NCBI GenBank assembly: GCA_017472105.1
Contig: JAFUQY010000445.1
Coordinates: forward strand, 1 to 13,217
Direction of reading: 5' to 3'
From: Clostridia bacterium
GTDB taxonomy: Bacteria; Bacillota_A; Clostridia; Oscillospirales; CAG-272
DNA: 13,217 nt
A program made the position numbers and the translations under genes. Below are positions 55-13,217 of this stretch, piece after piece (positions within the stretch are counted from its first letter, which is position 1; the number at the start of each line of letters is the position of its first letter). The notes beneath the pieces were generated by a model. The model was not told where the DNA came from. It saw only the letters and a list, made by a program, of their open reading frames with translations, and ran no database searches.

Positions 55-708
55 TTACAGGGATTCTGCCGCCGCGACGTATTTTCTCGCCAGAGCGGTG
101 ATGGCGGCGTAGTCTCCCGCTTTGATTTTTTCCTTGTTCACAATTCCCGTAGCCACGCCGATTCCGCATGCACCCGCACGGATGTAGTCCGCGAGGTTGT
201 TTTCGTTCACGCCGCCGACCGCGAGGAATTTCAGATGGGACAGCGGTACGGCAACGGCATGGAGGTAGGACGGCTTCATCTCACCGTTCGGGAAGAGCTT
301 GATGAAATCCGCGCCCGAGCGATGTGCCAGCGTTGCCTCAGACGGCGTCAGGGAACCGGGGATTGACACCAGTCCGAGCTCGCGGGTGCGCCGGATCACG
401 TCGGGATTGGTGTCGGGCGAGATGATGAATTTCCCGCCTGCCTCTGCGGTGAGCTCTGCCTGACGCTCCGTGAGAACCGTGCCCGCGCCGATGTGCATGC
501 CCGGGAAGGCTTTGGCAAGTGCGCGGATGTTTGCGGCGGTTTCTTCGTCCGACGGATTGCCGAGACTGTCGTAGGTCACTTCCGCAAGACGGATGCCGCC
601 CTTGTACATGGCTTCTGCGGTGTTGATAAGCTGATCCCGGGTCAGACCGCGCAGGATCACGATGATTTTGTGTTTTTCAATGGCTTCGATTACGGTGTTT
701 CTGTTCAT
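55..708 (-). CDS. eda: KDPG/KHG aldolase (2-dehydro-3-deoxy-phosphogluconate aldolase family)
   Basis: A cytoplasmic class I aldolase of 217 residues, the usual length for the family. Family members cleave 2-keto-3-deoxy-6-phosphogluconate to pyruvate and glyceraldehyde 3-phosphate, and many also act on 4-hydroxy-2-oxoglutarate. Visible motifs are an early VILRG strand, a GIRLAEVTY strand with the presumed catalytic Glu43, GAGTVL, PGSLTPSE, and DFIKLFPNG with the Schiff-base Lys137, followed by AVGGVNENN in the phosphate-binding loop. I chose the ATG at 706-708 because GAGG lies 6 bases upstream. An ATG at 718-720 forms an ATGA overlap with the stop of the upstream gene, but has no recognisable ribosome binding site. 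The gene is the second in an operon with a beta-helix protein, which suggests it handles ketodeoxy sugar acids from uronate- or galactonate-containing glycans. The exact substrate (phosphogluconate or phosphogalactonate type) cannot be read from the sequence. Confidence 0.93.
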   Translation of the reverse strand: MNRNTVIEAIEKHKIIVILRGLTRDQLINTAEAMYKGGIRLAEVTYDSLGNPSDEETAANIRALAKAFPGMHIGAGTVLTERQAELTAEAGGKFIISPDTNPDVIRRTRELGLVSIPGSLTPSEATLAHRSGADFIKLFPNGEMKPSYLHAVAVPLSHLKFLAVGGVNENNLADYIRAGACGIGVATGIVNKEKIKAGDYAAITALARKYVAAAESL

Positions 709-716
709 ATTCTGCC

Positions 717-2693
717 TCATTTTGTCTGTCTGCCGATGGCGGCGGTGTCGATTTCCGGGAAACCTTCGCGCGGATGACGGAAGGTGAGGGTTTCGGGATC
801 GAGATCCGCTTCGTCGGTGGTGTGATAGGTGTGGTTGACGCCGATTTCGTTGTAGTCGTACACGGACTGAGCCATCCAGCCGAACCGGGCGTCCTTGTTG
901 ATGATGACATTGTTCTCAACGACCGCACCTGCCGGATTGATGGGGAAGTCGGGATCGTTGAACTGTGCGAAATCGTGAATCAGCCGGCTGAGCTGCGGGT
1001 ATTTCGTGATCCACGGCTCGTCGTTTACCGGAGTTGCACGGAGTTTGACCCAGTGCGGGGAATCCGGGGTGTCGCATGCCTGATGTGCCCAGCCGCCGTT
1101 GACAAATCCGTCGCGGTTGCGGTCGTCGTAGGAGATGGGATTGATGCTTTCGCCGATGATGATGTTGTCACGTACCACGCAGTCCCGTCCGCCGCCGATG
1201 AGGAACGCGTTTTTCCGCACGTCGATGAGGATGTTGCCGTACGCGGTCTGACCGGAGAGTCCGTCGTCCCAGTAAATGCCGTCAGGTGAGAAGCCGTCTC
1301 CGCCGATGTTTCGCAGAAGATTGTACCGGATCACCGTTCCGTGGCCGCACCAGTCGTAGCCGGAGTAGATCGCGCCCGCGTCGCTGGAATGCGTCACCAC
1401 ATCGTGGATGTAGTTGTATTCGATCAGGTGCTCGTTGCCGCCGTAGCCGATTGCCATGTGCGGCGAGTGGCTGATTTCGTTGTGTGCGGCAGTGTTTCCG
1501 ACGCCATGCAGGGAAATGCCCGCCTGATAGGTCTGGAATACCTCGGAGAAATCGTGGATGAAGTTGTTCACGGCGCGGTTATTCCCGGGAGTGAGGGTTT
1601 TGCGTTCACCGCCGTTGAGGATGATGCCGCCGCGTCCGGTGCGTGTGATTTCACAGTTTTCGACGGTGTTGTCCGATCCCGTGACGGTGATGCCGTTTTC
1701 CGCGACGTTTTTGACGACGAGATTTTTCAGTACATTTCCGTTTCCGCTCGCCGTGATGCCGCCGGATCTGGTGCAGGTCAGCGTGAAGCCGTCGATGGTG
1801 GCATTGTCCGCGTTTTCGATCGTGATGAGCGGCTTCTGCGAGATCGAGACTTCAAACACGCCGTCCTCGGATGTGGGATAGACGTACAGGAGCCCCGTTT
1901 CGCGGTCAAGGTAGAATTCGCCCGGCGCGTCCAGCTCTTCCAGTACGTTGTAGAGATAGTACAGCGCACCCGGACGGCATCCGAAATTGCTCACATACTT
2001 CGGGGAAATGGCGCGGTTGTCGGTGTTCACCCGGATCGGCGAGGAAGAATCCGCCCAGTCCCAGTAGAAATAGCCGAACGTCCATGCTGTTTCCGGGGTC
2101 TTCCAGTTCTTCATCCGCTCATTGGTTGCTTTGTCGACGATGTACGTGCCGCCGCGCGGATTGCGGATGTCATAGTTGCACTTCCAGTAGTTCTGCGGCG
2201 GGAATTCGTTGACCTCACCGAGATCGAGCACGGCGTCGAGCTTGAGATAGCCTTCGTTCGGGTACCGCGCCAGCGTCATCCGGCGGTCGTTTTCGAACAC
2301 TTCCAGATTGATCCCGCATTCGCCGTTGTCGTAACGGGATGCGGTGTGGTATGCCCCGATCGGATACACGCTGCCCCAGTCGGATTTCGTCAGTCCGTAT
2401 GCTGTAAGATCAATCACGCGCACATGTTCTGCGGCATCCGGAGAAAGCCGTGCAAGAATGTCATCCGCCGGGCGCGCGGTTTCGCTGTGGGAGACGGAAA
2501 TGCCGCCCGTGAGAATGGCACCGGGTTCGCCGAGGTAAGTGCATCCCGAGTCCCGCTTGTCGAGTGCGATGCTCTCGCGGTAAACACCTGCCCTGACGAG
2601 AACGGTGCCGCAGCATTCACGTGCCGCCGCTTGTGCAGACGCAACGGTCGGATATCCGCTGTCGGGAGAAACGGTAAAAATTCTGTTTTCCAT
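717..2693 (-). CDS. Right-handed parallel beta-helix protein, probable glycan-active enzyme
   Basis: A 658-residue protein with no signal peptide, so probably cytoplasmic. The N-terminal part (about 8-65) has the FTVSPDSGYPTV and VLVRAGVYRE signature that opens many pectate-lyase-like beta-helix proteins. A middle region (about 90-280) contains FGYFYWDWAD near residue 206 and EFYLDRETGLLYVYPT near 259, features I associate with bacterial beta-helix glycosidases of the GH141-like kind. From about 295 onward come repeated helix coils rich in GGI, NGI, NTVENCEIT and VIRYNLLRNI-type steps. The start at 2693 has AAGGA 7 bases upstream. An in-frame ATG at 2754-2756 would run through the promoter -35 region and is unlikely. 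The gene heads an operon with the KDPG-type aldolase, with a 4-bp ATGA overlap if the outer aldolase start is used. The linkage fits breakdown of an acidic polysaccharide or its oligomers, but the substrate is unknown and catalytic residues cannot be named from sequence alone. Confidence 0.82.
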   Translation of the reverse strand: MENRIFTVSPDSGYPTVASAQAAARECCGTVLVRAGVYRESIALDKRDSGCTYLGEPGAILTGGISVSHSETARPADDILARLSPDAAEHVRVIDLTAYGLTKSDWGSVYPIGAYHTASRYDNGECGINLEVFENDRRMTLARYPNEGYLKLDAVLDLGEVNEFPPQNYWKCNYDIRNPRGGTYIVDKATNERMKNWKTPETAWTFGYFYWDWADSSSPIRVNTDNRAISPKYVSNFGCRPGALYYLYNVLEELDAPGEFYLDRETGLLYVYPTSEDGVFEVSISQKPLITIENADNATIDGFTLTCTRSGGITASGNGNVLKNLVVKNVAENGITVTGSDNTVENCEITRTGRGGIILNGGERKTLTPGNNRAVNNFIHDFSEVFQTYQAGISLHGVGNTAAHNEISHSPHMAIGYGGNEHLIEYNYIHDVVTHSSDAGAIYSGYDWCGHGTVIRYNLLRNIGGDGFSPDGIYWDDGLSGQTAYGNILIDVRKNAFLIGGGRDCVVRDNIIIGESINPISYDDRNRDGFVNGGWAHQACDTPDSPHWVKLRATPVNDEPWITKYPQLSRLIHDFAQFNDPDFPINPAGAVVENNVIINKDARFGWMAQSVYDYNEIGVNHTYHTTDEADLDPETLTFRHPREGFPEIDTAAIGRQTK

Positions 2694-2727
2694 GATTCGT
2701 TCCTTTCGCAGAGATGGATTTTTCTTC

Positions 2728-2756
2728 ATTGTAGCACAAATTCCGTCCGACTGCAA
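2728..2756 (-). promoter_or_regulatory. Sigma-A-type promoter of the beta-helix/eda operon
   Basis: On the minus strand the -35 box TTGCAG (2751-2756) and the -10 box TACAAT (2728-2733) are separated by exactly 17 bases, with TGTGC directly before the -10. The start codon lies 34 bases past the -10 box. It sits immediately after the terminator of the neighbouring TPM gene. Confidence 0.78.
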
Positions 2757-2803: not shown

Positions 2804-3745
2804 TCAGAATCTGCCGGAGCGTCCGCCGTGGGATCTGCCGGATGAAGACCGGTGAACGGAGCCGCCGCCGTGATGCATACCGCCGGAACGGTTCTGCTGG
2901 GTCTGGCGTCGTGTCCTTCTCACGTTGCGGTACAGGAACAAGTCGCGCGATAACGTCACACGGATGCTGTCCCGCTTGGCGTAATCCGATGCACCCGCCT
3001 GCTTGCCGACGGATTTCAGCTCATTCTTCCACACACCGACGATGAGACCGGAGAAGAGAAATCCCGCGAGGAGGGATAGGGGAAGGGCAAACGGAATTCC
3101 GCCGGATACCCGGATCGCGGTAGGACCGGATGCACCGCCGATGATTGCCATGGCGTCGTCGGAGCTGTAATAATCATCCGCTGAGCCGTAGAAGGGATCG
3201 TATCCGACGTAGGTATTGTTATCGGTGTATCCGTTTTTCGCCTTGGTGATGTACTCGTCGCAGAGTCCGGCGAAATACGAGAAACCGCTGAAATACGCGC
3301 CGTCGGAGATGTAGTACAGGCAGTCGTCCATGATGAGGTCGATGATGCCTTCCGGGAAAGCCGTGATGCCGTACCCGTAGGTCGAGACTGCCCATTCGCG
3401 TTCCGCCATGGAGAGCAGGAGCAGAATGCCGTCGTCATCGGTGCCGTAACCGTAGCCGAAGTAGTCGAAAATATCGTCCGCATAGCTCTGCGCCGTGTAT
3501 CCGTCGGGAAGCTCGGGAACGGTGATGACCACGACGTCGACTTCCTGTCGCTCGGAAATCTCATCGAGAGCCGCATTCAGCTCATCCGCTTCGCCGGAGG
3601 TGAGAAGAGCGGCGTCATCCACAAGGCGCGGGAGCGTGCGGTCATCCGGAATCGTGCCGGGCATGTCGGAAAATTCCGTCGCCGATACGGGCAGGGAAAG
3701 CGCGAAAACAAGAGTGAGGATGAGTGCGAAAATTCTCAGTTTCAT
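2804..3745 (-). CDS. TPM-domain membrane protein (YdjH-like)
   Basis: A 313-residue exported membrane protein. Residues 1-22 form a signal peptide with a VSA cleavage site. A TPM domain covers about 38-165, with LVDDAALLTSGEADEL at its start, the VDVVVITVPEL strand and GILLLLSMAEREWAVSTYGYG. One transmembrane segment lies at about 216-238, followed by a basic cytoplasmic tail ending in a Gly/Ser/His/Arg-rich stretch (HHGGG, SSSGRSHGG), which is common in clostridial TPM proteins. The start has AGGAGG 5 bases upstream, and that box overlaps the stop of the preceding zinc-ribbon gene, so translation is probably coupled. In B. subtilis the TPM protein YdjH works with YdjG to recruit PspA to the membrane under stress; a similar role here is inference. 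An odd feature is IIGGASGPTA at 201-210, just before the membrane segment, which resembles the conserved GGADGPT motif of sodium-pumping decarboxylase beta subunits. Confidence 0.88.
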   Translation of the reverse strand: MKLRIFALILTLVFALSLPVSATEFSDMPGTIPDDRTLPRLVDDAALLTSGEADELNAALDEISERQEVDVVVITVPELPDGYTAQSYADDIFDYFGYGYGTDDDGILLLLSMAEREWAVSTYGYGITAFPEGIIDLIMDDCLYYISDGAYFSGFSYFAGLCDEYITKAKNGYTDNNTYVGYDPFYGSADDYYSSDDAMAIIGGASGPTAIRVSGGIPFALPLSLLAGFLFSGLIVGVWKNELKSVGKQAGASDYAKRDSIRVTLSRDLFLYRNVRRTRRQTQQNRSGGMHHGGGSVHRSSSGRSHGGRSGRF

Positions 3746-3755
3746 GACATCCTCC

Positions 3756-4838
3756 TCAGAACATAAACTGCATCAGCAGGTAGATCGCCGCACCGAACGC
3801 CGCCGTCAGTCCGAGCCGCCATTTCCAGTACGCGGACTTGTCCATCGGGAGATTGCCCACGAATTTGCCGGTCTGACCGTTCATGGCGAAGGTGTAGGTT
3901 TCGTCGTTCCACTTCGTGTGCAGGATCCACACGGGCAGGAGAACGTACTTCACCGTGCCGTTTCTCAGCTGTACATTGGTCTGCTCGGGGATGAGCGTCG
4001 TGTAGCCCTGTGCCTGTGACTGGAACACTGCCTGCGCAGTTTTCTTGACGCGTTCGTTGGCACGGGGAATGCATTCGTCGGCAGTCGAGCCGTATTTTTC
4101 CGCAAGATATCCCGAGAGATACGCGGTGCGGAAATCTACGGCGTCCTTCATGTCGTACGGCTCGATGGATTCCATCAGATCGTCCGGCATTTTCGCGGAA
4201 GAATCGACCGGAACCGCCGCAAACGACATGGAACCGCCTCTCTGGACGGAGTAGAACTGCGTTTCGGTGTAGTTGTAATTGTGATCGCTCCAGATGCGGT
4301 TTTTCGTCCCCTTGAAGCGGAGCTGAACATCCGCATCCGCGTCGAAGAGCCAGAACGGAACGTAGATTCCCTGAATTTCCTCGAGATGGTTTTCATCCGA
4401 GAAAATCTTCGGCAGGAGCTTCTTGCCGGTCGTGTGCCGTTTCAGAGCTTCCTTTGCCGCCTTTTTGTCGATCTTGAAGGGAATCACGAGATCGGGCTTG
4501 AGCGTTCCGGCGAGATTGCCCGTCATCACCACGGGATTTCCGCAGTACGGACAGGCGGATGCCGCAGTGTGCTCGTCGCAGACAATTTCACCGCCGCAGG
4601 ACTGACAGAGATAGGAACGCATGCCCTCCGTGTCACTGTCCGTCCATTCGGAGGAGGAACCGGTGTTCCACTGCATGTCGTCCGGCTTCTCGTCCTGGAG
4701 GCTTTCGTCCATGGCGTGCAGGGATTCCACCGCAAACTCCGAGTCGCAGTACGGACACTTCATGTTCTGCGTCTGGCTGTTGAATTCCACCTGACCGCCG
4801 CAGTTCGGGCATTTGTATTGGAGTAATTCTTCGGACAT
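3756..4838 (-). CDS. Double zinc-ribbon membrane-anchored protein (YdjG-like)
   Basis: A 360-residue protein with two N-terminal zinc ribbons. The first uses CPNC at 10-13 and CPYC at 28-31. The second uses CQSC at 78-81 and CPYC at 96-99. An acidic linker joins them. The body (about 105-335) contains IPFKIDK, IYVPFWLFDA and LLPVWILHTKW, typical of TFIIB-type zinc-ribbon proteins of Bacillota. A single transmembrane segment lies at the extreme C-terminus (about 340-360), so the ribbons probably face the cytoplasm. The ATG at 4836-4838 is preceded by AGGAG 7 bases away; the TTG one codon upstream is an unlikely start. Gene order and content match the B. subtilis ydjG/ydjH/ydjI set tied to PspA, suggesting a scaffold in membrane-stress response (inference). 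A 67-bp gap to the upstream SPFH gene holds only short stem-loops without a T tract, so all three genes are probably cotranscribed. Confidence 0.85.
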   Translation of the reverse strand: MSEELLQYKCPNCGGQVEFNSQTQNMKCPYCDSEFAVESLHAMDESLQDEKPDDMQWNTGSSSEWTDSDTEGMRSYLCQSCGGEIVCDEHTAASACPYCGNPVVMTGNLAGTLKPDLVIPFKIDKKAAKEALKRHTTGKKLLPKIFSDENHLEEIQGIYVPFWLFDADADVQLRFKGTKNRIWSDHNYNYTETQFYSVQRGGSMSFAAVPVDSSAKMPDDLMESIEPYDMKDAVDFRTAYLSGYLAEKYGSTADECIPRANERVKKTAQAVFQSQAQGYTTLIPEQTNVQLRNGTVKYVLLPVWILHTKWNDETYTFAMNGQTGKFVGNLPMDKSAYWKWRLGLTAAFGAAIYLLMQFMF

Positions 4839-4908
4839 CAATATGTCTCCTGTTGATAAAATACAGCAGAATCAGCGGAAATACGCCGATCCGCGCCTGT
4901 GAGAGTTC

Positions 4909-6312
4909 TCACTTAACGTCTTCGTCACCGAATCTGTCACCGCATTCGGGGCAGAACTTCGGGGGATTTGCGGGATCTTCCGGTTCCCAGCCGCACTTGT
5001 CGCAGATATAGAGCTTCGCCTGAGCCGGCTTTTTCGCACCGCATTCGGAGCAGAACTTGCCCTTGTTCAGCTTACCGCAGGAGCAGGTCCAGCCGTCCGC
5101 GTCATCGGGCTTCTTTGCACCGCATTCGGGACAGAACTTGCCGGAGGCTGTGTGACCGCATGCGCATTTCCACTCACCCGGCTTCTTGGCTTCGGGTTTC
5201 TTCGATCCGCATTCGGGGCAGAATTTACCGGATGCCACAGCACCACAGGAGCATTTCCAGCTGTTTGCGGGTGCACTTGCCTGAGCGGGAGCCTGCTGCT
5301 GATTCTGCTGACCCATCGCGAAGAGGGATGCCGCGTTCATGCCGCCGTTCTGGTTTGCCATGTTCATGCCCATGAATCCGGTCATCGCACCCGCGGAGTT
5401 GCCGGCAGCGGTCTTCATTGCCTCAGCCTGTGCATCCACGAGAACGGCAGCAGCCATGGTGGGATCGCGGTACATGGCGTTCTTCTGTGCGGTCTTGATT
5501 AATTCCTGATCCTCTTCGGGGAGGGTCGGCGGATTCATCGCAACGGACTTGACGCGGATGCCGCGCTTTTCTGCCCATTCGTTCGACAGCTCTTCGTTGA
5601 GGGCGTCTTCCAGCTCCTGATTGTGCAGGGGAATCTGGTTCGGGCGGATTTCAAGTGCGGACAGACGACCGACTGCCGGACCGAGCGCGCTGATGAATTC
5701 CGTCTTGAGCTGGGATGCGATTTCATCCACGGTGTATTCACGCTGTACATTGCCGCAGACGTTCGCGTAGAAAATCAGCGGGTCGGTGATGGCGAAGGAG
5801 TACGTACCGAAACAGCGGAGGGATACGTCGATGTCGAGATTGATCCGGCTGTCGACCACGCGGAAGGGAATCGGCTGGGGTGTGCCGAACTTGTTGTCCA
5901 TGATTTCCTTCGTGTTGAAGTAGTAAACGCGCTGATCCTTGCCGGTGTCTCCGCCGAAGGTGAACCGCTTGCCGATGAGCTTGAAGGTGGCGAGAATGCT
6001 GTCTCCGAGGCTGCCGGAGAAAATGGAGGGTTCGGTGGATGCGTCCCAGATAAATTCACCGGGTTCCGCGCAGACTTCGACAACCTTGCCCTGTTCAACG
6101 ATAATCATGCACTGACCGTCGGCAACGGCAATGGCGGAACCGCTGGAAATGATATTTTCCGATCCTTTCGTGTTGGAGGAGCCGGAAGAAACTCTCTTTT
6201 TGCCCTTGGTTACGAGTACGTCGTTCGGAAGTGCGTCGCAGTAGAAAAATTCCTTCCACTGGTCAGCGAGAGTGGTGTTCAATGCGTTCAGACCTGCCTG
6301 AATAAGTCCCAT
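4909..6312 (-). CDS. SPFH/band 7 protein with four C-terminal zinc ribbons (YdjI-like)
   Basis: A 467-residue protein with no signal peptide. An SPFH-type domain spans about 20-275 (VLVTKGKK, the CMIIVEQGKVVEV strand, EPGEFIWD, then LKTEFISALGPAVGRLSALEIRP and the helix ending EDQELIKTAQKNAM). A Met/Gln/Ala-rich flexible linker covers about 300-350. Four zinc ribbons follow at about 352-373, 381-402, 408-429 and 435-460. The first three are near-copies with pattern W-x-C-x-C-G then GKFC-x-EC-G-x-KKP; the last is CDKC...CPEC. B. subtilis YdjI is shorter, so the extra ribbons account for the greater length. The start at 6312 has AAAGGAG 8 bases upstream. The family is thought to assemble membrane-associated scaffolds; in Bacillus it is induced by envelope stress through sigma-W, but the promoter here looks like ordinary sigma-A. 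Confidence 0.88.
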   Translation of the reverse strand: MGLIQAGLNALNTTLADQWKEFFYCDALPNDVLVTKGKKRVSSGSSNTKGSENIISSGSAIAVADGQCMIIVEQGKVVEVCAEPGEFIWDASTEPSIFSGSLGDSILATFKLIGKRFTFGGDTGKDQRVYYFNTKEIMDNKFGTPQPIPFRVVDSRINLDIDVSLRCFGTYSFAITDPLIFYANVCGNVQREYTVDEIASQLKTEFISALGPAVGRLSALEIRPNQIPLHNQELEDALNEELSNEWAEKRGIRVKSVAMNPPTLPEEDQELIKTAQKNAMYRDPTMAAAVLVDAQAEAMKTAAGNSAGAMTGFMGMNMANQNGGMNAASLFAMGQQNQQQAPAQASAPANSWKCSCGAVASGKFCPECGSKKPEAKKPGEWKCACGHTASGKFCPECGAKKPDDADGWTCSCGKLNKGKFCSECGAKKPAQAKLYICDKCGWEPEDPANPPKFCPECGDRFGDEDVK

Positions 6313-6534: not shown

Positions 6535-7236
6535 ATGCACAATTCAGCCAAACAGAACAAAGGACGCATGATGTACGATATCTCGTGCCTCATCATCTGC
6601 GGGATCACAGCGATCTTCCTTGTCATGGCTATTCTCTACTCCTTCGGAATTGACATCAACTGGCACGGACCGTGGACCGCGATCCTTCTTGCCGTCGGCG
6701 GAACTCTCACCGGAATCGGCGGCTTCATGGGGAAACCCACGAAAAACTGGGCAAAAAACATCGGCAAATGGGCAATGCACTTCGGGCTTGTCATCATGCT
6801 GATCGGGTTTGCCGTGTTCGCAGCAGCCGGTGAAACGGTCAGTGCGAATGTCCCCGTTGGCAGCGATACATATTACGCCAACATCCAGCGCGAAAACGGG
6901 GAGGTCTGCGAGCTGGGATTCAATTTCCGGATCACCGACTTCAACATCGACTATCACGAGGACGGTACGGATAAAATGTACCGCGCAGGTATCGAGTTCG
7001 CGGACGCCGTCAGTCTCCGTGTGGATTCCGACGAGCTTTCCGTCAACGGTACCATCGTAAAGAACGGCTGGCGCATCTATCTCATGAGCTACTCCGGCGA
7101 TACCGTCAACCTCATGTTCCGCCGCGACCCCGGTGAAATCTGGGTCAAGACCGGCATCTGGATGACCGTTGCGGGTACCGTGCTCTCCCTCCTTGTAGCC
7201 AACATGCTTCCCGTGAAAAAGGAGGATGACAAATGA
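6535..7236 (+). CDS. resB: Minimal ResB/Ccs1-like cytochrome c biogenesis protein
   Basis: A 233-residue integral membrane protein with predicted membrane segments at about 15-37, 46-64, 79-97 (containing His82) and 203-225. Between the third and fourth lies an extracytoplasmic domain of about 105 residues with FRITDFNIDY and the typical ResB phrase NGTIVKNGWRIYLMSY. RDPGEIWVKTGIW then leads into the last membrane segment, as in ResB-like proteins. Known ResB/Ccs1 proteins pair with CcsA/ResC in System II, holding apocytochrome and passing heme to CXXCH motifs outside the membrane. This one is much shorter than Bacillus ResB because the outer domain is small. It overlaps the CcsA-like gene by 4 bp (ATGA), and two CXXCH proteins follow, which strongly supports the role. 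The start has AAAGGAG 5 bases upstream. Confidence 0.85.
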   Translation: MHNSAKQNKGRMMYDISCLIICGITAIFLVMAILYSFGIDINWHGPWTAILLAVGGTLTGIGGFMGKPTKNWAKNIGKWAMHFGLVIMLIGFAVFAAAGETVSANVPVGSDTYYANIQRENGEVCELGFNFRITDFNIDYHEDGTDKMYRAGIEFADAVSLRVDSDELSVNGTIVKNGWRIYLMSYSGDTVNLMFRRDPGEIWVKTGIWMTVAGTVLSLLVANMLPVKKEDDK

Positions 7237-8021
7237 GTCCGGCTGTACTGAAAACCATCATCATCATTTCCACCGCACTCTACGCCGGATCCCTCGTGAT
7301 CTGGAACCTGAAAAAGCAGAAAATCGCACTCTGGGGCTGGTCACTGGCGTGGCTGTGCTCGCTTGCGGTGGTCATCAACAACTTCATCGTCAACCATTAC
7401 GTGCCCTTCGTGAGCATGTATCAGATTCTCACCTTCTCCGCAGTCCTGTTCGCGCTGGTGTACCTCTATACCCGGTACTGCCGGAGGGGCGCATGGACAG
7501 CTCCGTACTTCATCGGATGCTCCCTGTTCGTCTCCATCGGGCTCTGCTTCATGGACGCACAGGCTGTGTGGAACTTCGCACCTTCTCTCAACTCCCCGTG
7601 GTTCATCCCGCACATTCTCCTGTACCTCATCTCCTACGTCATGGGCGCGGTTGCGTTCCTGATGATGCTCTCCCGGTACTTCACGAAAAAGGAGAACCGT
7701 CCCGAGGCTGACCGGCGCATTGACAGCGGTATTTACGACTGCGTCTGCGTGCTCTTCCCCTGCATGACCATGGGCATGTTCTTCGGTGCGCTGTGGGCGA
7801 ATGAGGTCTGGGGCGGATTCTGGAGCTGGGACATCAAGGAAATCTGGGCGTTTGTCACCTGGATGATCTGGATGTGCTGGCTGCATTTCAGACGCTCCGC
7901 GAAGCTGAAGAAGTACGGCGATATTCTCGTAGCCGTCGGCTTCATCGCAGTCATCGTCACGTTCGTGTTCGTACGGTTCATGAACACCGCCGGATCCTCC
8001 ATGCACGCATACATGGGCTGA
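7233..8021 (+). CDS. ccsA: CcsA/ResC-like heme-handling cytochrome c biogenesis protein
   Basis: A 262-residue polytopic membrane protein of the CcsA/CcmC/CcmF heme-handling family. The tryptophan-rich WWD signature is clear at about 188-205 (WANEVWGGFWSWDIKEIW), followed by WLHFR. Candidate heme-ligand histidines are visible in the expected places: His55 in NHYVPFVSMYQ, His127 in SPWFIPHILLYLISY, and His258 in GSSMHAYMG at the very end. His218 follows the WWD motif. About six to eight hydrophobic segments are apparent. With ResB it forms the System II synthase that brings heme across the membrane and attaches it to exported apocytochromes. The start codon overlaps the resB stop, and an AAGGAGG-like site (AAAAGGAGGA) lies in the end of resB, so the two are translationally coupled. 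At 262 residues it is a compact CcsA without the extra N-terminal segments of some homologues. Confidence 0.92.
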   Translation: MSPAVLKTIIIISTALYAGSLVIWNLKKQKIALWGWSLAWLCSLAVVINNFIVNHYVPFVSMYQILTFSAVLFALVYLYTRYCRRGAWTAPYFIGCSLFVSIGLCFMDAQAVWNFAPSLNSPWFIPHILLYLISYVMGAVAFLMMLSRYFTKKENRPEADRRIDSGIYDCVCVLFPCMTMGMFFGALWANEVWGGFWSWDIKEIWAFVTWMIWMCWLHFRRSAKLKKYGDILVAVGFIAVIVTFVFVRFMNTAGSSMHAYMG

Positions 8022-8080: not shown

Positions 8081-10219
8081 ATGAAGCGAAAACTTTTATT
8101 CCTTCTGTCCGCGATCCTGCTTCTGACCGTATCCTGCGGCAAGGCAGAACCGGCATCGGACAACGTCGCCTCCGCGGATGCCGAATACGGTGAACGGGTT
8201 CCGTCTGAGAACTACATTTCACCCGCATCGGTTTACGCCGCTGACGACGGTTACGTTTACGCGGCAGATGCTACCGGCGGACGTATTTTCAAAATCGCTT
8301 CCGACGGCACCATCGCGGCACAGATCCAGCTCGACGGCTCCGCAAACTGCATCAAGACCCACGACGGTCTGATCTATGTGGGACGCGGCGGTCTTGGCGG
8401 CACTCTCACCGTGCTTGACAGCGAGCTGAAGGTCAAGAGCGAAATCACGGTCGGTCATACACCTCTGGACGTGGAATTCGCTGACGGCAAGGCTTACGTT
8501 GTCAACCGTTTCTCCGACGACATTACCATCGTCAATCTCTCCGATAACTCCACCACCACTGTGGAAGTCGGCAGAGAACCCATGGCGGCGGCATATCTGA
8601 ACGGCAAGCTCTACGTTGCATGTCACCTCCCCGAAGGTGCTGCCGATGAAGACAAGGTCAGCTCGAATGTTTACGTGGTTTCCGCGGACGGCAGTGTCAA
8701 GGCAATTGAACTCTGCAACGGCGCAGGCGGTGTTTCCGATATCGCGGCGACTCCCGACGGAAAATACCTCTTCGTGACCACTGTTATCGCGCGGTATCAG
8801 TATCCCACCACTCAGCTCGACGGCGCGTGGATCAACTCCAACGGCTTCGCGGTGATCGATGCATCCGACGACAGCTACAAGACCTCCATCCTGCTCGACG
8901 ATCCCATGCTCGGCGCGGCTTCTCCCTGGGGCATCGCGTTCGACAGCAGCACCGCGTACTTTGCGGCATCCGGCGTACATGAAATCGTGTCCGTTCCGCT
9001 CGACAAGCTGTACAGCATCCTCGAGTCGAACAAGAACAAGGGCGTTGAGCTCGCTGACCGGATCGGCATCCTCGACCTCATCCGCACCCGCACCAAGCTT
9101 CCCGGTGAAGGCGTACGTTCCATCTCCTACGCAAACGGCAAGCTCTACTGCGGTCAGTATTTCACCGGCGATATCGCTGTGATGGACGCGGAAACCTTTG
9201 AAATCACTTCCATTTCCCTCGGTGAACAGCCGGCGGCAGACATTGTCCGTGTCGGTGAAACCCTGTGGTACGACGCAACCGCGTGCTACCAGTACTGGGA
9301 ATCCTGCGCATCCTGCCACCCGAACGGACGCGTCGACGGCTTCAACTGGGACAACCTGAACGACGGTCTGGGCAACCCGAAATCCGCGGCATCCATGACC
9401 TACACCCACAGAACGCCTCCGGTAATGACCACCGGTATCCGTGCGGATGCTGAAACCGCTGTCCGTGCCGGTATGAAGTTCATCCAGTTCAACACCATCA
9501 GCGAGGAAGACAACAAGGCGATTGACGAATACCTCAAGAGCCAGCTTCCCGAACCTTCTCCCGCTCTTAATCTCGACGGTACTCTGAATGAAACCGCAAA
9601 GGAAGGCGAGGAACTCTTCGTTCAGTACGGCTGTGCGGAATGTCATCCCGCTCCGCTTTACACCGACCTCGAATACCACACCTCTCCCATTCTCGGTGAG
9701 GACGGCGGCTGGGAAAACCGTGACTTCGCAACACCCACTCTCGTGGAAGTATGGAGAACCGGTCCCTATATGTACAACGGCTCCGCGGCAACTCTTGAAG
9801 AAGCGGTAACGGCATTCATGCCCGACGGCGCATCCGAAGAAGACATCGCGAAGATCGCAGAATTTGTCCGCTCCATCGGTATGGAAGGCGAAGATTACGG
9901 CGTGGAACAGTTCTGGTCCGAGCTTGACGGCACCGTATCCCAGGGCAGACCCGCGGCAGGCGCTTCCGTCACCGGATACACCGTACGCTGCCAGTCCAAG
10001 GATACCAAGCCCGCGTACACCACCATCACCGTAAAGAACGCGGACGGTTCCGTGGCATTTGAAAACCAGTCCATCCTCGGCGAAATGCAGTACAACACCG
10101 CAGTCAAGGTGAATGTTGAAAACTGCATCGTTCCCGAAGGCGGCTCCGTTGAAATCTCCATCACCGACAAGAAGGGCAATGCGCTGGCAACAACCTATGT
10201 CCTGAGCGTGAAAAGCTGA
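8081..10219 (+). CDS. Di-heme c-type lipoprotein: beta-propeller fused to MauG/peroxidase-like domain
   Basis: A 712-residue exported lipoprotein. A hydrophobic signal ends in a lipobox with Cys19 (LLLTVSCGK). Residues about 45-400 form a YVTN/YncE-type beta-propeller (VYAADDGYVYAAD, TPLDVEFADGKAYVVNRF, EPMAAAYLNGKLYVACH). A di-heme domain follows: CASCH at 409-413 in the phrase CASCHPNGRVDGFNW, and CAECH at 518-522 followed by PAPLYTD. FATPTLVEVWRTGPYMYNGSAATLEEAV near 550-575 matches the C-terminal signature of bacterial cytochrome c peroxidase/MauG proteins, and Met580 is a candidate axial ligand by position. Residues about 645-712 look like a small beta-sandwich. The start at 8081 has GAAAGG about 9 bases upstream; earlier in-frame codons lie inside ccsA. 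The domain order resembles hydrazine synthase beta and gamma subunits joined together, and many uncharacterised planctomycete proteins. Reaction and electron partner are unknown. Confidence 0.88.
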   Translation: MKRKLLFLLSAILLLTVSCGKAEPASDNVASADAEYGERVPSENYISPASVYAADDGYVYAADATGGRIFKIASDGTIAAQIQLDGSANCIKTHDGLIYVGRGGLGGTLTVLDSELKVKSEITVGHTPLDVEFADGKAYVVNRFSDDITIVNLSDNSTTTVEVGREPMAAAYLNGKLYVACHLPEGAADEDKVSSNVYVVSADGSVKAIELCNGAGGVSDIAATPDGKYLFVTTVIARYQYPTTQLDGAWINSNGFAVIDASDDSYKTSILLDDPMLGAASPWGIAFDSSTAYFAASGVHEIVSVPLDKLYSILESNKNKGVELADRIGILDLIRTRTKLPGEGVRSISYANGKLYCGQYFTGDIAVMDAETFEITSISLGEQPAADIVRVGETLWYDATACYQYWESCASCHPNGRVDGFNWDNLNDGLGNPKSAASMTYTHRTPPVMTTGIRADAETAVRAGMKFIQFNTISEEDNKAIDEYLKSQLPEPSPALNLDGTLNETAKEGEELFVQYGCAECHPAPLYTDLEYHTSPILGEDGGWENRDFATPTLVEVWRTGPYMYNGSAATLEEAVTAFMPDGASEEDIAKIAEFVRSIGMEGEDYGVEQFWSELDGTVSQGRPAAGASVTGYTVRCQSKDTKPAYTTITVKNADGSVAFENQSILGEMQYNTAVKVNVENCIVPEGGSVEISITDKKGNALATTYVLSVKS

Positions 10220-10240
10220 GACCAAGGAGGATATACTTAA

Positions 10241-13217
10241 ATGAAGAAAACTTACCGCATTCTTTCTCTCCTGCTCGCTGTTCTGATGATCTGCTCCACT
10301 GCGCTGATCATTGTGCAGGCGGCGGAGGGTACGACTGAGGGTCTGACCTTCAGCGGCAGAAAGGCTGAGGCTGTCGGCAAGCTGTACGAAGAAACTCCGT
10401 ACTACGTGCTCGTCCGTCACCGTCAGCTCGGCGCATCCCACTACGCATACACCGAAGCTCTCGCAGAAGACCTCGGCAGCTCCAACCAGGATCCCGAAGG
10501 CAGTGAAGCCGTATTCAATCCCGGTTCCGAATTGGTTCTCGTTACCATCGTTGACAACGGCGACGGTACCTACAAGACTGTGGAAGAACAGCTTCTCAAC
10601 TCCCAGAAGGGCGTCATCCGTGACCCCGATGTTTCCACCGACGGCGAACGCATCCTCTTCTCCTGGAAGCAGAGCTCCGTGGACGATTACCACCTCTACG
10701 AAATGACCCTCGCAACCCGCGAGATCAAACAGCTCACCTTCGGCTCCGGTGCTGCGGACATCGAAGGCAAGTACCTCTCCGACGGATCCATCGTGTTCAG
10801 CTCCACCCGTGACATCCAGTCCGTTGACTGCTGGAAGACTCCGGTATCCAACCTGTACAAGATGAACGGCGACGGCACCGAAATCCTCCGTCTCGGTTAT
10901 GACCAGGTACATACCACCTATCCCACCGTTACCTCCGACGGACGTATCATCTACACCAGATGGGACTACAACGACCGTACCCAGATGTGGATTCAGGGCG
11001 TGTTCCAGATGTTCGAAGACGGTACCAACCAGACCGAGCTCTACGGCAACAACTCCAACTATCCCACGACCCTGATGCACACCAGAGAAATCCCCGGTGA
11101 GAGCGGCATGTACCTCTCCATTGCATCCGGTCACCACACCTACCAGCACGGTAAGCTCGTAACCATTGACACCACCACCGGCAGAAACGGTCCCGACGCG
11201 GTTGACTTCGTGTTCAACGACGGCACCAGAAAGCAGGACAACGTTGACGCATTCGGTCAGCAGGGCCGTCAGTACAAGTACCCCTACGCATTCTCCTCCG
11301 ACCTCTTCATGTATGCGGCAGTTGACCAGTACTCCAGCGTCAATGCCATGTTTGAAATCTGCGTATATGACAAGGAACTGGATCTGGAATTCACCTTCGT
11401 GGAACGCAACGGCAAGCTCCCTTGCAGCCAGATCGTTCCCGTATATACCCGCGATCTCTTCACCAGACCTTCCATGGTAAACTATGCCAAGGAAACCGGT
11501 ACCTTCTACGTTTCCAACGTGTATGAAGGCCCCGCAATGGAAGGCATCGAACCCGGTACCGCGAAGTACCTCCGTGTGGTTGAGCTGGAATTCCGTTCCT
11601 CCTCCATCGGCGCGACCTTCGCAGTCGGTTCCGGTACCGCTGACCCGTTCTCTCCTATTGCAACCGGTACAGGCTCGTGGGACGTCAAGACCGTGCTCGG
11701 CGTGGTTCCGATTGAAGCGGACGGCAGTGCACTGTTCACCGCTCCCGCAAACACTCCCATGTACTTCCAGCTTCTCGACGAAAACGGCAGTGTGATCCAG
11801 ACCATGCGTTCCTGGACGACGCTGATGCCCAACGAAACCTTCTCCTGCGTCGGCTGTCATGAAGACAAGAACATCGCGCCCACCGTCAGCGGTACCGTTA
11901 CCATGGCGATGAAGAAGGGTGTTCAGCAGCTCCAGCCCGACCTGTGGATGGAATCCGACCACGATCCTTACAGCGACGCTGACACCGAAGGCTTCTCCTT
12001 CCTCAAGGAAGTACAGCCCATCCTCGATGAAAGCTGCGTCGTATGTCACTCCAACCCCAACACCGCACTTTCCATGATCGGTCAGAGAGCAAGAGCGGTC
12101 AAGGTTCTCAACAACATCATTCCCGAAGACGCGGCATGGTTCTTCACCACCGCAAAGCCTGCCGACAAGTGGGAAACCCTCACCACGGTTGACTGGAACG
12201 GCGCACATGCTCCCTTCAGCTCCGGCAACGGCGATTACAACACCGAATGGGATTCCGGCGAAATCTGGGTGATGACCACCTTCACCGGTACCTATTACGA
12301 CCTCAACGAAGCATCCCTCACCTTCTCCGGCAATATCGTCGGTGATATCGAAATCTACGTCAACGGCAAGCTGATCCACGAAGGCTCTTACGACGGCAAG
12401 ACCGCTATCAAGGTCGACAACACCATGCGCAAGGCATTCCAGTTCGGCGACAACACCATTTCCGTTCATGTCAAGGGCTCCGCGTTCTCTCTTGCACTCG
12501 ATGCTGAAGAAGGAGAAGCCGGCGTTCAGAAGAATTTCTTCGATAACCTGACTGACTGGGAATACATCCAGGGTCCCAGCGAAGCAAAGGTTCAGGTTGA
12601 AGGCTGGATCGCCGGCGAAGACGACTCCACCAAGTGGAAGACCGCGCAGGCTCCCTTCGGTGACAGAAACATCGACGGCATCAAGTGGAAGACCGACTGG
12701 TCCGGCGACACCAGAAAGGCGATTGTACTCCGCAAGACCTTCACCGTCGACGATGTCAGCAAGTTTGCAGGCAGCGCACTCTCCACCAACATCACCTACG
12801 ACGACAGCATTGCAATCTACATCAACGGTGAGAAAGTATTCAGCGACGGCGGCTGGGTTGACTCCTACGTGGAACTCACCCTCGCGGCAGACGCTTCCAA
12901 GGTGCTCAAGAACGGCGAAAACATCATCGCTGTCTCCCTCATCAACACCGCGGGCGGACGTCAGTTTGACATGTCCCTCTTCTCCTTCGAAAAGCCCGAA
13001 GGCACCGAAACCGTTGAACCTCTCGATCCCTCCGTCGGTGCGGCGCAGTTCTCCCTCGAAGCACTGGATATCCTCGGTGCACGTCAGAAGAAGTACTGGC
13101 CCGTATCCTACCTCGTTCTGACCAGCTCCTATCAGAGCGGTTCCAACTGGTTCGCAACCTCCGACGGTGATTTCGTGAACTTCCTCTCCTCCATGAGCGT
13201 TCCCGAAATCATCACTC
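10241..13217 (+). CDS. Hydrazine synthase alpha-like exported di-heme propeller protein (3' end cut off)
   Basis: An open frame of 992 codons running off the window; it has no stop inside. Residues 1-27 are a signal peptide ending VQA. About 110-480 is a PD40/TolB-like beta-propeller (RDPDVSTDGERILFSW, YLSDGSIVFSSTRD, NLYKMNGDGTEI, DGRIIYTRWDY at about 233). CVGCH at 536-540 and CVVCH at 599-603, the latter in VQPILDESCVVCH, are c-type heme sites. This order, propeller then two hemes, matches the hydrazine synthase alpha subunit and its uncharacterised relatives. Residues about 630-755 and 785-918 are two jelly-roll-like modules (EIYVNGKLIHEG, IAIYINGEKVFSDGG) that appear inserted before the conserved YWPVSYLVLTSS motif at 952. 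AAGGAGG stands 10 bases upstream of the ATG, and the gene is 21 bases from the di-heme lipoprotein, so the two are cotranscribed. Substrate unknown. Confidence 0.88.
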   Translation, partial: MKKTYRILSLLLAVLMICSTALIIVQAAEGTTEGLTFSGRKAEAVGKLYEETPYYVLVRHRQLGASHYAYTEALAEDLGSSNQDPEGSEAVFNPGSELVLVTIVDNGDGTYKTVEEQLLNSQKGVIRDPDVSTDGERILFSWKQSSVDDYHLYEMTLATREIKQLTFGSGAADIEGKYLSDGSIVFSSTRDIQSVDCWKTPVSNLYKMNGDGTEILRLGYDQVHTTYPTVTSDGRIIYTRWDYNDRTQMWIQGVFQMFEDGTNQTELYGNNSNYPTTLMHTREIPGESGMYLSIASGHHTYQHGKLVTIDTTTGRNGPDAVDFVFNDGTRKQDNVDAFGQQGRQYKYPYAFSSDLFMYAAVDQYSSVNAMFEICVYDKELDLEFTFVERNGKLPCSQIVPVYTRDLFTRPSMVNYAKETGTFYVSNVYEGPAMEGIEPGTAKYLRVVELEFRSSSIGATFAVGSGTADPFSPIATGTGSWDVKTVLGVVPIEADGSALFTAPANTPMYFQLLDENGSVIQTMRSWTTLMPNETFSCVGCHEDKNIAPTVSGTVTMAMKKGVQQLQPDLWMESDHDPYSDADTEGFSFLKEVQPILDESCVVCHSNPNTALSMIGQRARAVKVLNNIIPEDAAWFFTTAKPADKWETLTTVDWNGAHAPFSSGNGDYNTEWDSGEIWVMTTFTGTYYDLNEASLTFSGNIVGDIEIYVNGKLIHEGSYDGKTAIKVDNTMRKAFQFGDNTISVHVKGSAFSLALDAEEGEAGVQKNFFDNLTDWEYIQGPSEAKVQVEGWIAGEDDSTKWKTAQAPFGDRNIDGIKWKTDWSGDTRKAIVLRKTFTVDDVSKFAGSALSTNITYDDSIAIYINGEKVFSDGGWVDSYVELTLAADASKVLKNGENIIAVSLINTAGGRQFDMSLFSFEKPEGTETVEPLDPSVGAAQFSLEALDILGARQKKYWPVSYLVLTSSYQSGSNWFATSDGDFVNFLSSMSVPEIIT

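Follow-up and report, generated by a model that had tools for sequence, protein, structure and literature searches.

Hydrazine synthase (HZS), the HzsABC complex of anammox bacteria (structure 5c2v; NCBIfam models NF052339-NF052342), has been called unique, and even a case of de novo birth, a view discussed in PMC12758564. The same paper describes HZS homologues outside anammox bacteria, in clades I-IV, from Planctomycetota, Syntrophobacter, Paludibaculum and others. In its account, the alpha gene comes first and Trp stands at gamma-144 in clades I-III, while in clade I gamma-Cys165 is present and alpha-His772 missing. It also names beta-gamma homologues in Bacteroidota and Bacillus; the string 'clostridi' does not occur in its main text. 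Non-anammox HZS homologues are already known; in open-licence papers we found no account of a clostridial HZS-like cassette that includes its maturation genes, of its joint occurrence with CcsA or of the loop result described below.

We analysed a clostridial window, i.e. the whole stretch of 13,217 nucleotides, that encodes two adjacent proteins, here called BC and HA. The pair resembles anammox HzsABC in its plan of an alpha and a beta-gamma part, with the beta-gamma gene before alpha, in its four CXXCH motifs, PF18582 domain and alpha-His772, in the alignment of a conserved propeller stretch with the HZS tunnel loop, and in the best fold match of the BC propeller and HA. Unlike HzsABC, it lacks alpha-Tyr591, gamma-His144, Cys165 and Asp168, carries extra GH2-like and F5/8C-like parts on HA, falls far below the cut-offs of all four NCBIfam models and was found without the anammox partner enzymes. 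As far as PMC12758564 describes them, the non-anammox homologues share the fused beta-gamma protein beside an alpha homologue and the missing hydrazine-specific residues. Compared with clades I-III of that account, however, the clostridial BC comes first, has no Trp at gamma-144 and is adjoined by ResB/CcsA; compared with clade I, the pair lacks Cys165 and has His772. The BC di-heme domain also passes the Pfam cut-offs of di-heme CCP/MauG proteins (PF03150, PF00034), but BC is fused to a propeller, paired with HA and devoid of Trp at the cited position. The features of the window are as follows.

55-720, minus strand: KDPG/KHG aldolase
717-2756, minus strand: right-handed beta-helix protein
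2804-3745, minus strand: TPM-domain protein
3756-4841, minus strand: zinc-ribbon protein
4909-6312, minus strand: SPFH protein
6535-7236, plus strand: ResB-like cytochrome c maturation protein (PF05140, 67.6 bits, cut-off 24.6)
7233-8021, plus strand: CcsA-type cytochrome c assembly protein (PF01578, 94.2 bits, cut-off 29.9)
8081-10219, plus strand: BC, homologue of fused HzsB and HzsC, with lipobox-like N terminus, beta propeller and di-heme domain
8789-8836, plus strand: BC loop ARYQYPTTQLDGAWIN, aligned with HzsB 245-260, the tunnel loop
9305-9319, plus strand: BC CXXCH 1, gamma-I type heme site, residues 409-413
9632-9646, plus strand: BC CXXCH 2, gamma-II type heme site, residues 518-522
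10241-13217, plus strand: HA, secreted HzsA homologue, cut by the contig end
11555-11863, plus strand: PF18582 (HZS_alpha middle domain) in HA, residues 439-541 (112.6 bits, cut-off 26.6)
11846-11860, plus strand: HA CXXCH 1, alpha-I type heme site, residues 536-540
12035-12049, plus strand: HA CXXCH 2, alpha-II type heme site, residues 599-603

ResB and CcsA lie side by side in overlapping genes, as a System II maturation pair, and both exceed their Pfam cut-offs; against the CcsB equivalog TIGR03144 the CcsA-like protein scores 120.8 bits, under the cut-off of 187.6. BC runs from an ATG at 8081 to a stop at 10219 (712 aa), has TVSC as its lipobox-like motif, and its propeller precedes both CXXCH motifs. 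The ATG of HA (10241) follows 21 bases after the BC stop and is preceded by AAGGAGG. HA is composed of a signal peptide, a propeller, the PF18582 domain, two CXXCH motifs and GH2-like beta domains. Its frame stays open up to the window end, leaving 992 aa visible; the full length is seen in a database copy, P0125 (1348 aa), which is identical to the window protein at 990 of 992 residues. The first HA motif is followed by Glu-Asp-Lys-Asn, the anammox counterpart being Gly-Ser-Tyr. At the other end of the window, the beta-helix protein beside the aldolase has a weak, sub-threshold match to a GH141 domain, and these two genes (55-2756, minus strand) may form a unit of their own for sugar acids or glycans.

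BC is homologous to HzsB/HzsC, and HA to HzsA. This was found at the level of sequence, with PF18582 present in the alpha homologue, and hydrazine synthase 5c2v was also the top-ranked PDB chain among those compared, both for the BC propeller and for the HA model (pTM 0.57). The structural alignments span mainly BC 44-375 and HA 33-504, and hence give no indication on other families elsewhere in the proteins; BC residues 422-457, which adjoin the first heme, were modelled at pLDDT below 50. The NCBIfam hydrazine synthase models do match, at scores far under their cut-offs (fusion 76.8 against 1250, gamma 51.5 against 625, beta 49.3 against 560, alpha 48.3 against 800). In Pfam, the di-heme domain of BC scores 35 bits with PF00034 (cut-off 21.3), 30.1 with PF13442 (cut-off 27) and 26.2 with PF03150 (cut-off 25.6). 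The number of CXXCH motifs is exactly two in all 120 BC relatives among the matches listed, and two in 113 of the 120 HA relatives listed (one in 4 and three in 3). The first BC motif aligns with gamma Cys102/Cys105/His106, which are kept in 99 of 99 rows. In one clostridial HA relative, P0149, both cysteines are gone from the second CXXCH and Tyr takes the place of the His aligned with alpha-His772, a joint loss that would be predicted for two sites sharing one heme. The initial annotation had described the first gene as a propeller followed by two CXXCH in a MauG/peroxidase-like domain, the second as an exported propeller with two CXXCH in the HZS alpha pattern, and the two together as following the subunit plan of HZS, in which beta and gamma are fused in some anammox bacteria. 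All of this is borne out: CCP/MauG Pfam families exceed their cut-offs in BC, PF18582 does so in HA, and homology, folds and gene pair agree on the plan. We consider an HZS-like architecture of BC and HA highly probable.

We then assessed how widely the pair is conserved. Protein searches gave 905 BC relatives among 7998 scored candidates and 1767 HA relatives among 7993. Among the matches listed (120 for each protein), every row with an organism name belongs to the Firmicutes, and the label is almost always Clostridia, Eubacteriales or Oscillospiraceae/Ruminococcaceae. A scan with one genome per species gave 144 BC relatives, and the best 80 of these 144 were analysed as loci: 29 core clostridial (L001-L028, L033), two other clostridial (L078 and L040, the latter from Bacilliculturomica massiliensis), 32 from Bacteroidota and 17 PVC-type or other. 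Neighbouring HA, ResB and CcsA were counted by profile search over all ORFs of the loci. HA lies directly 3' of BC in 27 of the 29 core loci, at gaps of -41 to 25 bases, and BC is first in all 27 that have both genes; L018 and L026 end at contig edges, and L022 has BC split into two ORFs. ResB and CcsA are upstream, as in the window, in 24 of the 29 and downstream in one (L013); they were not in the examined stretch of the other four (L009, L012, L022, L025). The two other clostridial loci are arranged as ResB-CcsA-HA-BC (L078) and HA-ResB-CcsA-BC (L040). Outside the core, HA occurs within the stretch in 40 of 51 loci, up to 4.9 kb away, and was not seen in the stretch in 11, several being short contigs. 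A fused ResB/CcsA-type protein adjoins HA in seven Bacteroidota loci (L041, L049, L052, L053, L055, L057, L062; identity checked by Pfam in L049). Across 19 loci, BC and HA distances correlate at 0.88, and at 0.61 when CcsA is partialled out, with none of 2000 permutations as high; on these sequence distances, we read the correlation as co-inheritance, short of proof of contact. Cultured-strain records with the pair include Parabacteroides distasonis, Bacteroides congonensis and B. massiliensis.

The BC tree (84 rows, with L018, L022 and L026 left out as partial) places the 27 core clostridial rows, i.e. 26 loci and the window, in one clade with a support of 100. L040 and L078 are its sister (support 98), and three Bacteroidota groups come next beside the Clostridia (support 95), PVC rows branching elsewhere and the anammox sequences far off. 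The clostridial host proposed in the initial annotation fits the nearest BC kin, which are clostridial, and the relatives listed for the flanking SPFH protein, of which the five named out of 120 are all Clostridia-type. Its statement that the proteins most resemble planctomycete or verrucomicrobial sequences did not hold: Clostridia and then Bacteroidota are nearest in the BC tree, and PVC kinship of BC was rejected on this basis. The distribution may reflect an old transfer between phyla. PF18582 copies number 24, 26, 36 and 52 in four PVC genomes (G159, G160, G161 and G167, the genomes of L030, L043, L066 and L038), where these proteins form a large paralogous family, nine in a Bacteroidota genome (G166), and one each in G149, G162, G163, G164 and G165 (Clostridia, Parabacteroides, Bacteroides). 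Near BC in L043 and L047 there is a GH106-type, Gfo/Idh/MocA-type or sulfatase gene.

The link between the pair and heme maturation extends to whole genomes. In 13 carrier genomes, CcsA and PF18582 were each matched exactly once per genome; CcsA is within about 5 kb of HA in ten of them, at 12 kb in G005 and on a separate contig in G007 and G010. PF00034 matches occur in 9 of the 13, each at a place and in a frame fitting BC, and the model missed BC itself in the other four, so that the search, which detected no other cytochrome, had limited sensitivity. Among 147 genomes of one clostridial order, that of G001, which is also the centre of the sample, PF18582 was found in five, and the same five have CcsA over the cut-off and BC matches with E < 1e-170 (HA being on a different contig in one of them, G027). 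One further genome (G097) has a sub-threshold CcsA match, and four more have borderline BC propeller matches, with E between 2.7e-4 and 9.5e-4. The genomes G012 and G149 are those of studied loci, found via BC irrespective of CcsA. Leaving out G001 and G012, the chance agreement of the remaining three would be 2e-6 for independent genomes, which these are not. The expectation that c-type cytochrome machinery is rare in such hosts was thus confirmed within this order, with CcsA over the cut-off in 5 of 147 genomes. We conclude with good confidence that ResB/CcsA provide heme maturation dedicated to BC-HA. Four hemes outside the cell, with a dockerin on some HA (e.g. in L008), might also serve as a conduit carrying electrons to the outside in extracellular respiration. 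This is very unlikely: three cytochrome families tried revealed no further cytochromes in the carriers, and in HZS, according to PMC12607021, heme alpha-II lies too far from the other hemes for efficient transfer.

Does the complex make hydrazine? The same subunits, the same gene order as in anammox bacteria (HzsB-HzsC-HzsA in L091), the conserved loop aligned with that of the HZS tunnel and the retained bis-His residue alpha-His772 would all suit a true hydrazine synthase, or another enzyme that couples NO or hydroxylamine to an amine through an N-N bond. We confronted this idea with the residues whose roles in HZS and its homologues are given in PMC12758564 and PMC12607021, using HzsA and HzsC references from anammox loci; in L091, the published residues Cys303, Cys583, Cys586, His587, Ser590, Tyr591 and His772 lie at their published numbers. 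Alpha-Tyr591, a ligand of heme alpha-I, is Tyr in 13 of 13 anammox rows and in none of the 51 non-anammox rows, and Asn replaces it in 23 of 23 clostridial rows. Alpha-His772, the second ligand of heme alpha-II, is His in all 13 anammox and all 23 clostridial rows; the residue aligned with it is number 1011 of P0125, past the window end. The zinc residue alpha-Cys303 is present in only 5 of 13 anammox rows. Around heme gamma-I, in an alignment from which one fragment without heme motifs was dropped, His144, Cys165 and Asp168 are found in 11/11 anammox rows and 0/88 others; Cys165 and Asp168 fall in a segment missing from all 88, and Asp replaces Glu122 in every one of the 88. Searches for partner enzymes in 17 carriers also speak against N-N bond formation: they retrieved no NrfA, no HAO/HDH-type octaheme protein (PF13447; 12 matches in the anammox genome G255 used as positive control) and no heme-copper oxidase over the cut-off (one sub-threshold match in G013), absences that are provisional because most carriers are drafts. 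An enzyme forming N-N bonds is accordingly a highly improbable reading. With both the hydrazine-specific ligands and the sought partner enzymes missing, the complex does not run anammox chemistry; we rejected hydrazine synthesis as its function and consider it very probable that BC-HA is not a hydrazine synthase. The initial annotation, which expected an uncharacterized chemistry in an HZS-like plan, is supported here. Judged from its residues, BC-HA probably does another job, perhaps one that acts on sugars. Further invariant residues near alpha-I allowed a metal site to be rebuilt, but the result depended on the alignment and is hence not claimed.

The CCP/MauG character of the di-heme domain raises two further options. 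A peroxidase detoxifying hydrogen peroxide at the cell surface would be in line with the family cut-offs passed by BC, and 33 of 36 clostridial rows keep a Glu aligned with what we take to be the distal Glu of CCP. However, at the position of gamma-His144, where a Trp is important in CCP and MauG (PMC12758564), all 36 clostridial rows have Ile, Val, Ser, Ala or Thr, and none has Trp. Detoxification would also leave HA and the conserved loop unexplained, and the families tried in the carriers yielded no electron-donating cytochrome, which makes a peroxidase unlikely. MauG acts on a propeller-bearing partner, and BC could similarly be a maturase modifying side chains of the adjoining propeller protein HA or of another secreted protein. 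Against this, there are two hemes on each protein, both proteins match HZS subunits and the HZS gamma subunit is not a maturase; we see little probability in this option.

Our main ground for expecting an HZS-like mode of action, with two sites and a putative tunnel, is a conserved loop that aligns with the tunnel loop of HZS. When 16-residue windows of the BC propeller were ranked over 43 rows, conservation was highest for ARYQYPTTQLDGAWIN, at 0.88 against a propeller mean of 0.60, and the next ranks are shifted copies of it. Although its letters differ, its counterpart in the alignment is HzsB 245-260, according to PMC12607021 a loop close to the tunnel that joins the two active hemes of HZS. 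Nothing in the ranking steered it towards this segment. We infer that BC-HA would work like HZS, with two sites and a putative tunnel, whatever its substrate.

Hints on the substrate come from accessory domains and neighbouring genes. Among 23 clostridial HA rows, at E 0.001, F5/8 type C domains were found in 11, dockerins in four and GH2_N in three. The window HA has no carbohydrate-binding domain over the cut-off, and the F5/8C match in P0125 is sub-threshold. In 28 selected other HA (20 from Bacteroidota, 6 from PVC and 2 clostridial), 16 have an FGE-sulfatase (formylglycine-generating-enzyme-like) domain, C-terminal in these proteins (e.g. L049:13517-17518), four have NPCBM and three PA14. 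The dockerin type I domain of a Lachnospiraceae HA (L008:12080-17428, 40.6 bits) suggests display on a scaffold. Cohesin partners were sought beside dockerin-bearing HA, and Pfam gave no cohesin in L008:17457-18497, L040:13448-17047 or L040:19897-21381.

Beyond the clostridial core, the genes near the pair fall into BLAST clusters that include chorismatase-like proteins (22 loci), DhaK (8), FGGY kinases (6, of which one is PVC) and DeoC-type aldolases (5), counts that are not independent because many of these loci are close kin. One representative of each neighbour cluster was checked with profiles, and DeoC, XylB, LsrF-type (NF006081), Dak1, Dak2 and FGGY models were over the cut-off; the chorismatase equivalog model was not, in the chorismatase-like representative checked. 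A Bacteroidota operon (L049:8937-21476) encodes an IclR regulator, BC, a chorismatase-like and a cupin-like protein, HA, the fused ResB/CcsA and DhaK; those of L069 and L073 are similar, with DhaL and an LsrF-type aldolase in addition. The three operons possibly encode an undescribed catabolic pathway. In clostridial loci, the only recurrent neighbours are ResB/CcsA and an AraC-type regulator, the latter in 8 of 30 loci (as counted by a greedy ORF-picker, with one checked). Since the metabolic neighbours are in Bacteroidota and not in Clostridia, the substrate may differ between them. A sugar-like carbon substrate is a tentative proposal, to which we attach rather less than even confidence; as a counterpoint, a tunnel would suit a small intermediate better than a sugar. 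A redox-neutral overall reaction would fit best, given that no partner cytochrome or oxidase was found.

We propose that ResB-CcsA-BC-HA would be a four-gene cassette making and maturing a secreted complex that is homologous to hydrazine synthase without being one. ResB/CcsA would load the four CXXCH sites with heme c, and BC, anchored at its N terminus, would form a complex with HA. A tunnel at the conserved loop of the propeller would connect the peroxidase-like site of gamma-I type with the site of alpha-I type. The most likely activity of such a complex would be a heme conversion at two sites, taking place outside the cell on a sugar or on some other hydroxylated compound and perhaps redox-neutral overall. 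To this explanation as a whole, from the cassette to the two-site conversion, we give an even chance.

A broader and doubtful proposal, for which we would claim only a modest likelihood, is that HZS is an offshoot of a widespread secreted family of two-site heme enzymes acting on glycan-derived or polyhydroxylated carbon, and that some gut Clostridia mature cytochrome c for it only. A self-contained gut relative, together with cultured carriers, would open the family's older chemistry to assay, and thereby to a test of how an enzyme forming N-N bonds arose. Some fermenting Clostridia would, moreover, be maintaining an entire c-type heme pathway on behalf of a single complex, and such a single-use pathway would point to a still undescribed reaction in the animal gut that is worth its cost.
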